Source: Blastocatellia bacterium
GTDB taxonomy: Bacteria > Acidobacteriota > Blastocatellia > Pyrinomonadales > Pyrinomonadaceae
NCBI GenBank assembly: GCA_013697915.1
Contig: JACCVY010000119.1
Coordinates: 1 to 64,000 of the forward strand
DNA: 64,000 nucleotides
Direction: 5' to 3'
Below the pieces are notes generated by a model, which saw nothing but the letters and a program-made list of their open reading frames with translations, made no database searches and was not told the origin of the DNA. The translations under genes and the position numbers were made by a program. How positions within the stretch are numbered: the first letter of the stretch is position 1; each line of letters begins with the position of its first letter. Below, in pieces: positions 28,859-31,790 of the stretch.

Positions 28859-30229
28859 ATGAAAAAACTTTTCGGCACTGACGGTATGCGCGGCGAAGCT
28901 GGAAAGTTTCCACTCGATGCTACCACCGTCGAAATTGTGGGCACGTCGCTCGCGAATCATCTGCGAGAAAAACTCGGCCGCGCACCATTGATTGTCGTCG
29001 GACGTGACACGCGCGAGTCCGGGCCTTGGCTGGAGCAGGCACTCGCCCGCGGCGCAACCGCGGCGAGTGCTGACTTGCAATCTGGAGGCGTCATCACGAC
29101 GCCCGGTGTTGCTTATCTGGTGCGTTCACTTTCTGCCGACGCCGGCGTTGTGATCAGCGCTTCCCACAATCCCTATCAGGACAATGGTCTGAAAATTTTT
29201 GTGCCGCAGGGAAGCAAGTTGGACGAAGAGACTGAGCGACTAATTGAGAAAGATATTTTTGCCAATACAAAAGCACTGGCCGCGGAGGGCAGCGACGGAT
29301 CCGGGTCAACGCCTGTCTCTACAACTGTAAATGAAACTGGGCCCTTGCAGTCACGTTATCTCGATTACCTCGCAGACGAAATTGGTCGCGGTCTTTCGCT
29401 GGTGGGGATCAAACTCGTAGTTGATTGCGCCAACGGCGCGGCTTCTGCGCTTGCGCCCGCTCTACTTGAACGGCTTGGCGGGACTGTTGTCGCCATCAAC
29501 AACACGCCGGATGGACGCAATATAAACTTGAACTGCGGATCGCTTCATACGGAGCGGCTGCAAGTGGAAGTGCTGAAGGAACATGCCGATTTGGGCGTAG
29601 CGTTTGACGGCGACGCTGATCGTTCGCTTTTTGTTGATGCCAAAGGCCAACTCGTAAACGGAGATGGTACTTTGTGGGTACTGGCGCAATATTTGCACCA
29701 ACGCCATGGGCTGGCCCACGAAACGGTAGTTGCTACCGTGATGAGTAACGTAGGTCTGGAGCTCGCGTTGAAATCGCTGGGTTTAACTTTGACCCGCACA
29801 GACGTGGGCGACAAATATGTCCTGGAGGAACTATTGCGAAGTGGAGCGACGTTGGGAGGCGAACAGTCGGGACATATCATCCTGCCAGAACTAAGCCTGG
29901 CGGGCGATGGACTGATTACCACACTCTCCTTACTGCGCGTCATCACCGAAGAAAGCAAATCCTTACATCAGTTGACCGAAGGCTTTGAGGTATTTCCGCA
30001 AGTACTTGTCAACGTGAAGGTAAAGCAAAAGCATTCGTTCGTTGAGGTTCCGTCAATTAGCAAAGTCGCCCGCGAGATCGAAAATGAACTCGGCTCGCGG
30101 GGACGCTTGCTGTTGCGTTACTCCGGCACCGAACCACTGGCACGCGTAATGATCGAAGGCGAGAGCCAATCGCAAATTGAAGCTTTTGCGGACCGGCTAG
30201 CGGCTGTGATCAACGAAACTCTGGGCTGA
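28859..30229 (+). CDS. glmM: Phosphoglucosamine mutase
   Basis: Converts glucosamine-6-phosphate to glucosamine-1-phosphate for UDP-GlcNAc synthesis. 456 residues. The phosphoserine is S102 in VISASHNPYQDNG, the Mg loop is AFDGDADRSLF, the sugar loop is GGEQSGHI and the phosphate loop is LLRYSGTEPLARVM, all intact. It ends the cdaA-ybbR-glmM operon with a 30-bp gap after ybbR. GlmM of other bacteria binds and inhibits CdaA. Confidence 0.96.
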   Translation: MKKLFGTDGMRGEAGKFPLDATTVEIVGTSLANHLREKLGRAPLIVVGRDTRESGPWLEQALARGATAASADLQSGGVITTPGVAYLVRSLSADAGVVISASHNPYQDNGLKIFVPQGSKLDEETERLIEKDIFANTKALAAEGSDGSGSTPVSTTVNETGPLQSRYLDYLADEIGRGLSLVGIKLVVDCANGAASALAPALLERLGGTVVAINNTPDGRNINLNCGSLHTERLQVEVLKEHADLGVAFDGDADRSLFVDAKGQLVNGDGTLWVLAQYLHQRHGLAHETVVATVMSNVGLELALKSLGLTLTRTDVGDKYVLEELLRSGATLGGEQSGHIILPELSLAGDGLITTLSLLRVITEESKSLHQLTEGFEVFPQVLVNVKVKQKHSFVEVPSISKVAREIENELGSRGRLLLRYSGTEPLARVMIEGESQSQIEAFADRLAAVINETLG

Positions 30230-30384
30230 CTTTCGTCCGTCTGATCGTACAATTTTTACTCGCAAACCCTGCAACAATTACACTCTCGATCGGCAGAGTT
30301 CAGGTCGCGGTTTTTACCGTTTTCCTAAGAATTATCAAGACTCTCTGCAAACAAGCGCCTTCCACTTTCTCAAAGATAACCCTC

Positions 30385-30414
30385 TTGCACGGCATGCATG
30401 TTGCGATGTATATT
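30385..30414 (+). promoter_or_regulatory. Sigma-70-like promoter for a candidate small RNA
   Basis: TTGCAC (30385-30390) and TATATT (30409-30414) are 18 bp apart in the spacer after glmM. The transcript would start near 30421 and run into the structured region ending in a terminator at 30535. No open reading frame with a ribosome-binding site follows within that interval. Confidence 0.45.
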
Positions 30415-30420
30415 GTGGGG

Positions 30421-30537
30421 CAAGAGAGACGGTTGGTGAATCCTCCGTCTCAAGTGGTTGCTGGGGTGAGGACAGTGACCACGAATATGGATGGGCGCGA
30501 CGTACTCCCACGTTTGTCGCGCCCATTCGCTTTTTGA
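30421..30537 (+). ncRNA. Candidate small structured RNA between glmM and aroB
   Basis: About 115 nt with promoter, two stems and a terminator. Stem 1 pairs GAGACGG (30426-30432) with CCGTCTC (30445-30451). Its 12-nt loop ends in CCT, which continues into CCTCC, so the loop and stem edge carry an anti-Shine-Dalgarno-like string. Stem 2 pairs GTGGT (30454-30458) with ACCAC (30478-30482) around a purine-rich loop containing GGGGTGAGGA. Stem 3 is the terminator. I recognise no known family: it lacks signature sequences of SRP, RNase P or tmRNA, and I could not fit it to 6S RNA. Confidence 0.45.
30492..30535 (+). terminator. Rho-independent terminator of the candidate small RNA
   Basis: TGGGCGCGAC (30492-30501) pairs perfectly with GTCGCGCCCA (30516-30525), followed by TTCGCTTTTT. 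It would also terminate read-through from glmM and insulate aroB. Confidence 0.7.
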
Positions 30538-30644
30538 TCCCACGTTTCCCAAAAAATTTCCCAACAAAAGCTGCGTGCTAGAATGCACACTCCCAATTGC
30601 GCGCTGGTTGGTCCACAGCGACTACAGGCAACAGGAGTTTGGCA

Positions 30645-31790
30645 TTGCAGCGATTGCAAATAAGCGTCCCGGCGCAACCCTTTAAATACGAAATTCTGGT
30701 CGGCCGAGGAATTCTTTCTGCGGCTGGAAGAGAAATCCGCCGCCGCCTTGGACGCCAGGTTCAGCGTCTTGCGCTTATCTCGAACAAGAAAGTTTCAAAC
30801 CTCTACGGTCCGCTCGTTGTCGAAAGCCTGGAAGCAAGCGGGTTTCAGATTTCATCCTGGTTGATGGGTGATGGCGAACGCTACAAATCTCTCAAAACAG
30901 TGGAAACAGCATTACAGTTTTTGAGTGAGCATGGCATTGAACGGACGGATGGACTGGTTGGCCTGGGTGGAGGGGTGACAGGCGACCTCGCCGGTTTTGC
31001 AGCCGCGATGTACTTGCGCGGCATCTCTTTCGTGCAAATTCCCACCACGCTGGTGTCGCAAGTCGATGCTTCCATCGGCGGCAAAGTGGGCGTCAATCTA
31101 TCTAGCGGAAAAAATCGCGCCGGCGCGTTTCATCAGCCAGATGTGGTCATTGCCGACCTCGAAACTCTTAAGACGCTGCCTGCTCGCGAGCTGACGGCGG
31201 GCTGGTGCGAATGCATAAAGCAGGGTGCGATCGGCAGCCGGAAACTTTTCAAACAGACGGTGGACTATCTTTCGCAGACTGAAGGTGAGCGAATGGCAGT
31301 CTCTTCGCAGCTCGAACACCTTATCGCGGCTCACGGTGCATTTAAGGCTTCAATTGTCAGGGCGGATGTGCGAGAAAGTCCTGAACGCACCGATCCACGT
31401 TCGCGACGAATTCTGAATTTCGGGCATACGGTTGGACATGCGTTGGAGGAATTGACTGGCTATCGACGCTTTCGTCATGGTGAAGCGGTGGGATGGGGAA
31501 TGTTGTTGGCCGGCGAGCTTTCAAAAAACCTGGGCCTACTCGATCAATCGGAGTTAGAATTGCTGCGAGCGGGCATTCGCCTTTGTGGCCCATTGCCCGC
31601 AGCAGAGGATATTGATGTCGACGCGATCCTCAGCGCAGTGACACGCGATAAGAAAAGGGCTCGCGGCCAGGTGCAATGGGTTCTACTGGAGCGAATCGGC
31701 CGTCCCCGAATGGTCAATGGCAAGGAAATCGATGTCAACAGTTTGAGGACATCCATTCGGGACATCCTACAAAAGAGGAATGACGAATGA
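30645..31790 (+). CDS. aroB: 3-dehydroquinate synthase
   Basis: Second shikimate-pathway step, DAHP to 3-dehydroquinate, NAD and metal dependent. 381 residues from a TTG at 30645, chosen because AGGAG sits seven bases upstream (30633-30637) and residues before it are not conserved; further in-frame TTGs at 30639 and 30597 are alternatives. Motifs: VGLGGGVTGDLAGFAAAMYLRG, PTTLVSQVDASIGGKVGVN and the metal-binding FGHTVGHALEE. The stop codon overlaps the next gene by four bases (ATGA). Confidence 0.93.
   Translation: MQRLQISVPAQPFKYEILVGRGILSAAGREIRRRLGRQVQRLALISNKKVSNLYGPLVVESLEASGFQISSWLMGDGERYKSLKTVETALQFLSEHGIERTDGLVGLGGGVTGDLAGFAAAMYLRGISFVQIPTTLVSQVDASIGGKVGVNLSSGKNRAGAFHQPDVVIADLETLKTLPARELTAGWCECIKQGAIGSRKLFKQTVDYLSQTEGERMAVSSQLEHLIAAHGAFKASIVRADVRESPERTDPRSRRILNFGHTVGHALEELTGYRRFRHGEAVGWGMLLAGELSKNLGLLDQSELELLRAGIRLCGPLPAAEDIDVDAILSAVTRDKKRARGQVQWVLLERIGRPRMVNGKEIDVNSLRTSIRDILQKRNDE

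Follow-up and report, generated by a model that had tools for sequence, protein, structure and literature searches.

Small RNAs (sRNAs) of the Qrr type in Vibrio have a sigma-54 promoter, occur in several copies, act with Hfq and pair through an exposed linear stretch. The E. coli sRNA GlmY has an overlapping sigma-54/sigma-70 promoter of the same kind as the one described below (PMC6075780), and the rhizobial multi-copy sRNAs RFMSmelA075/A099 present invariant loops on variable stems (PMC3927594). From Acidobacteria, the structured RNA candidates Acido-1 (RF01686) and Acido-Lenti-1 (RF01687) have been described (PMC2864571); in the literature searched, we found little published work on sRNAs of the Acidobacteriota, a phylum dominant in soils. 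Here we analyse a predicted sRNA gene located between glmM and aroB in a 64,000-nt stretch of DNA (the window; contig JACCVY010000119.1 of assembly GCA_013697915.1) from a Blastocatellia bacterium of the family Pyrinomonadaceae. In our assessment, it is probably a free-standing gene for a trans-acting sRNA and the type member of a new sRNA family of the Blastocatellia, activated by sigma-54, likely dependent on Hfq and acting through exposed loops.

A covarying three-hairpin RNA

The gene, its structure and conservation, its promoter architecture and its paralogues were all identified by computation. The predicted sRNA of ~121 nt lies on the forward strand at 30416..30536 (131.6 bits with model R1); its 5' end was derived from the spacing to the -12 and -10 elements (30416-30421) and its 3' end from the T-run. 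The predicted fold consists of three separate hairpins and has a free energy of -59.7 kcal/mol (z -5.5), a value equalled by none of 200 shuffled sequences. The original prediction of an unrecognised sRNA gene with two hairpins and a strong terminator was thus borne out, at a length of about 115-121 nt and with all elements located where it had placed them. The 5' end GGGGCAAGA (30417..30425) contains GGGGCAA, which is invariant in alignment A5 across four families. It is followed by hairpin 1 (30426..30451; 30426-30432 pairs with 30445-30451, with GG-UGAAU-CC inside), hairpin 2 (30454..30482; a 10-bp stem with the loop at 30464-30472 and the motif GGGGTGAGGA at 30463-30472) and an intrinsic terminator (30489..30536; 30489-30502 pairs with 30515-30528, loop UCCCAC at 30506-30511, T5 run at 30531-30535). 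The loops of the three hairpins read UGRAU, GGGUGAGGA and UCCCAC. The automated pattern scan of the window did not list promoter and terminator, owing to its narrow rules.

Alignment A2, comprising 42 sequences, shows 92.8% of cells paired and compensatory, both-sided changes in 26 of 35 pairs, with all three helices covarying, as the original prediction had asked relatives to show; its whole-structure measures were reached by none of 500 shuffles. Hairpin 1 has compensatory changes in 6 of 9 pairs, and hairpin 2 in 8 of 10, with 100% of its cells paired. In hairpin 2, the mean column identity is 1.0 for the loop and 0.90 for the stem. The loop GGGGUGAGGA and the motif GGGGTGAGGA, which is exposed in the predicted fold, are invariant (42/42), and the terminator loop UCCCAC is present in 20 of 21 rows from four families. 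Conservation and covariation together exclude a chance origin of the sRNA.

The original prediction had pointed to CCTCC, at a loop and stem edge, as an anti-Shine-Dalgarno (anti-SD)-like string that might form a switch with GGGGTGAGGA. Neither a free anti-SD string nor the switch was supported. CCTCC (30442-30446) is part of the hairpin-1 stem, with four of its five bases paired and only U30444 bulged, and it is not conserved. Pairing of hairpin-1 CCTCC with GAGGA of the hairpin-2 loop could form five pairs in many sequences (88.6% of cells); not a single compensatory change was seen among the 42 sequences, and hairpin 1 varies freely among relatives and is replaced in several genera while the hairpin-2 loop stays constant, so that we consider such a switch highly improbable. 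Pairing between the hairpin-2 and terminator loops (UGGGG/UCCCA) was rejected because all changes were one-sided. Pairing of the hairpin-2 loop with the 16S anti-SD was rejected by eye, since it leaves the conserved GGA unexplained and is disrupted in some families.

The short ATG frames across the sRNA have no ribosome-binding site, in line with the original prediction, and are not kept in relatives; conservation of a small open reading frame over the terminator was not found. In Rfam, neither the window nor the sampled loci gave a match at the gathering score or at E values up to 5.

Spread and genomic context

Matches were obtained by blastn in 51 of 59 relatives, many with E values of 1e-30 to 1e-80, the weakest, mostly outside the family, being at chance level. 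Model R1 matched in 91 of 156 genomes of the class, including three other Blastocatellia families (f2, f6 and f8); weak R1 matches in other Acidobacteriota classes resembled chance terminators or coding DNA and were discarded as homologues. When 84,980 species genomes were scanned with a pattern, 74 stretches were returned; those confirmed by a high R1 score come from records of Acidobacteriota, named Pyrinomonadaceae and Blastocatellia among them.

In the window, the gene follows cdaA (DAC domain), ybbR and glmM (28859..30229, +; Pfam PGM_PMM domains) and precedes aroB (30597..31790, +; Pfam DHQ_synthase), whose likely start is near 30643, after AGGAG. In the Pyrinomonadaceae the sRNA is usually found between glmM and either aroB or an M3-like gene, and the glmM neighbourhood is limited to this family. 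The neighbours of the sRNA in f2 are rdgB and either aroB or the M3-like gene, and in f8 the sRNA is convergent to mtgA. With other neighbours in these families, the link to c-di-AMP or envelope control that the original prediction had offered as speculation stays hypothetical. Since the neighbouring genes vary by family and are convergent in f8, the sRNA stands alone and travels without glmM. This also bears on the possibility that the RNA acts in cis, as a leader or attenuator of the gene that follows it, here aroB. In most loci that gene is indeed aroB or the M3-like gene, in the same orientation, and the RNA ends in a terminator; yet the downstream gene changes with the clade rather than being fixed, reaching the convergent mtgA of f8, and no competing antiterminator was seen. 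We therefore rate a cis-acting leader as improbable.

Sequence identity of the sRNA is 95-97% in some species of the genus in which that of the neighbouring GlmM is 66%. Several metagenome contigs break off inside the sRNA, presumably because this short stretch is common to co-occurring relatives. Such contig breaks, the multi-copy occurrence and copies on mobile contigs could also be those of a mobile repeat spread by duplication and devoid of regulatory function. We give this explanation very little credence, given the compensatory changes, the element's own promoter and terminator, a loop more conserved than the stems and the fixed site after glmM in the Pyrinomonadaceae. No match to the sRNA was found in phage and plasmid records. 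Two contigs of a viral collection carry related sRNAs (L338:10124-10244 and L337:2161-2293, with 71 and 69 bits); one copy adjoins an endolysin-like gene, the other is part of an element that has genes for integrase and replication.

Promoter architecture and proposed mode of action

The original prediction had assigned the promoter TTGCAC-18-TATATT. This sequence is present as a sigma-70-like promoter (30385..30414; TTGCAC at 30385-30390, TATATT at 30409-30414), but its reading as a plain sigma-70 promoter did not hold: it overlaps a sigma-54-type -24/-12 element, GGCAT-N5-TTGC (30391..30404), which is, judged by its sequence, the promoter element common to all four families. TTG-N21-TATATT has a single match in the 64 kb (0.14 expected), whereas the single match of GGCAT-N5-TTGC, taken alone, is unremarkable (1.8 expected). 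In f2, f6 and f8, the upstream sequence has the classic sigma-54 form TGGCAY-N5-TTGC[A/T] (exact in 14 of 17 loci), and a -10 hexamer or sigma-70-like promoter is not present. In one clade of the Pyrinomonadaceae, to which the window belongs, GGCAY-N5-TTGC occurs in 27 of 27 loci, mostly overlapped by TTGC-N18-TATATT, and the remaining loci of the family have the sigma-70 form only. The distance from the -12 element to the invariant GGGGCAA is fixed at 12 nt (13 in f8). Loss of rpoN as the cause of the promoter switch was rejected, because the gene is kept (146 of 156 genomes of the class). Several sigma-54-type copies per genome occur in f6, and a single one was found in the window genome. 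Second sigma-54-type copies were also seen in f2 (L328 and L329), with a terminator loop that lacks UCCCAC. The shift among relatives from sigma-54 only through overlapping promoters to sigma-70 only makes this a traceable case of sRNA rewiring.

Further upstream, an exact GTA-N5-TAC dyad is located at -99 to -144 relative to the -24 GG in 12 of 27 Pyrinomonadaceae loci and in 15 of 17 loci of the other families; shuffles gave means of 1.7 and 1.5, with a maximum of 7. In the window, a degenerate copy of TGTAA-N3-TTACA, TGCAACAATTACA (30270..30282, +), is a candidate site for an enhancer-binding protein. When the class was searched for the dyad plus the -24/-12 element, using no RNA sequence, 29 matches were obtained, 21 of which precede this sRNA, some of them being paralogues outside the set used for pattern design; the reversed pattern gave ~10 (all tallied by hand). 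The E. coli-type upstream activating sequence, TGTN12ACA, was found at only one locus in each group and was dropped.

In the model suggested by this architecture, sigma-54 RNA polymerase would be activated from a site about 110-120 bp upstream, occupied by an enhancer-binding protein, and basal output in the Pyrinomonadaceae would probably be supplied by the overlapping sigma-70 promoter. The RNA of ~121 nt would end at the intrinsic terminator, whose U-tail suits Hfq, and Hfq is encoded in 54 of 58 genomes. Other RNAs may be contacted through GGGGUGAGGA of hairpin 2, UCCCAC of the terminator and perhaps the 5' GGGGCAAGA. We thus infer transcription, sigma-54 dependence, Hfq binding and base-pairing. 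As the RNA combines an intrinsic terminator and invariant exposed loops with variable stems, and as Hfq is general and CsrA nearly absent, an Hfq-dependent base-pairing sRNA appears most likely; the trans-acting regulator envisaged by the original prediction is also the reading that fits the sequence evidence best.

Some points weigh against this view. The sigma-54 element has been lost in several genera, which retain the sigma-70 promoter, so control by sigma-54 is not universal. The dyad of the window species is degenerate, with one changed base in GTA, and weak by itself. A 7-mer complement search of the window gave no convincing target and no obvious ribosome-binding site complementary to either loop. 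Finally, the invariant loop might just as well serve to bind a protein.

This last point leads to the main rival explanation, in which the GGUGAGGA hairpin binds an RNA-binding protein that many sRNAs titrate, as CsrB/RsmZ do with CsrA. One loop sequence on many stems and in several RNA types (see below) is as compatible with a protein site as with a seed, and the loop includes GGA. Known RNA sponges carry many sites per RNA; here there is a single site per RNA, and the terminator loop is conserved too. CsrA itself was rejected as the protein, as it was found in only 2 of 58 genomes and not in the window's own. We consider a protein-binding decoy rather unlikely. For the base-pairing sRNA, the covarying structure, a promoter type that predicts its activation and invariant loops that predict its action make the proposal testable in a cultured Blastocatellia strain.

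Paralogous RNA types and comparison with known systems

The hairpin-2 loop recurs beyond this sRNA (type A). GGGGTGAGGAC has four occurrences in the window genome and none in reversed form; in 80 genomes of the family the hand-summed counts are about 265 versus about 66 reversed. A closing stem of at least 8 bp was found at 49 of 67 distinct loop sites, in which the closing sequences took 14 different forms; among random positions the proportion was 0.7%. These sites fall in several RNA types, namely B, C and D, together with RNAs whose terminator loop carries the motif. Type B has two hairpins and starts with CCAACTAGATGG. Type C has a TTGAC promoter and hairpin 2 first; in L033, L038-L040, L043 and L104, with several copies in some genomes and a TTGAC/TA-rich promoter, hairpin 2 comes before a GCUGAAUG or GAAA hairpin, with the terminator last. 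L066 and L113 carry GGGGUGAGGA in the terminator loop itself, with the complement CUCACCCC on an upstream hairpin strand; Ku-domain genes lie alongside L066.

Type D (L034:1394-1514 (-), G000:C153) is a second widespread family; it precedes a permease-like gene that has no Pfam match. Model R2 matched it in 93 of 156 genomes of the class, nearly all Pyrinomonadaceae; pair counts come from alignment A4, since helix 2 is out of register in this detection model. Type D has a sigma-70-like promoter, covarying helices and the loops UCCCC, GGGGUGAGGA and GUGGGAG. In part of genus g9 (L286-L289, L292, L294), D carries short tetraloop-like loops (UUCG, GNRA, others) instead of the hairpin-2 motif, and its hairpin-1 loop is shortened from UCCCC to UCCC. 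L296, L298 and L297 contain two or three tandem shorter D-like RNAs with a common terminator loop, GUGUGGGAGAC (or GAGUGGGAGAC).

The D terminator loop GUGGGAG and CUCCCAC of A are exactly complementary (predicted duplex -14.6 kcal/mol), and D was not found in one clade of genera whose A loop has CCCCAAG or a similar sequence instead, which represents one event; each of the two RNAs also occurs in genomes that lack the other. An interaction of the two terminator loops is only suggested by this complementarity. More broadly, the UGAGGA-loop hairpin might be a portable module of a class-wide sRNA superfamily with one shared partner, in which D would oppose sigma-54-controlled A via the terminator loops and copies on mobile elements would join the network, a scenario that we regard as doubtful.

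Among described RNAs, neither the Acido-1 nor the Acido-Lenti-1 model matches the window or the sampled loci. 6S RNA, a match to which would have spoken against the original prediction, consists of a single long hairpin opened by a large bubble at its centre; our RNA has no Rfam match and folds into three separate hairpins. A sponge of the CsrB/RsmZ type differs in that no CsrA was found in the window's own genome. GlmY/GlmZ of the Enterobacteriaceae are similar in several respects: the overlapping sigma-54/sigma-70 promoter (at the level of sequence architecture), a glucosamine-pathway gene adjoining the sRNA in the Pyrinomonadaceae, and RapZ-like_N in 54 of 58 genomes including that of the window, a weak likeness because that family is widespread. 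In contrast, there is no sequence or Rfam match, the link to glmM is missing in the other families, and the dyad is TGTAA-N3-TTACA rather than TGTN12ACA. RFMSmelA075/A099 share the multi-copy occurrence and the invariant loops on variable stems; they show no homology, and their anti-SD CCUCCUCCC loops are borne by three or four hairpins, whereas our RNA, instead of CCUCCUCCC in each loop, has one G-rich loop, GGGGUGAGGA, and the UCCCAC terminator loop. With Qrr, the RNA has in common a sigma-54-type promoter, several copies per genome in f6 and an encoded Hfq; it differs by having no Rfam match and by its conserved parts, which are hairpin loops.
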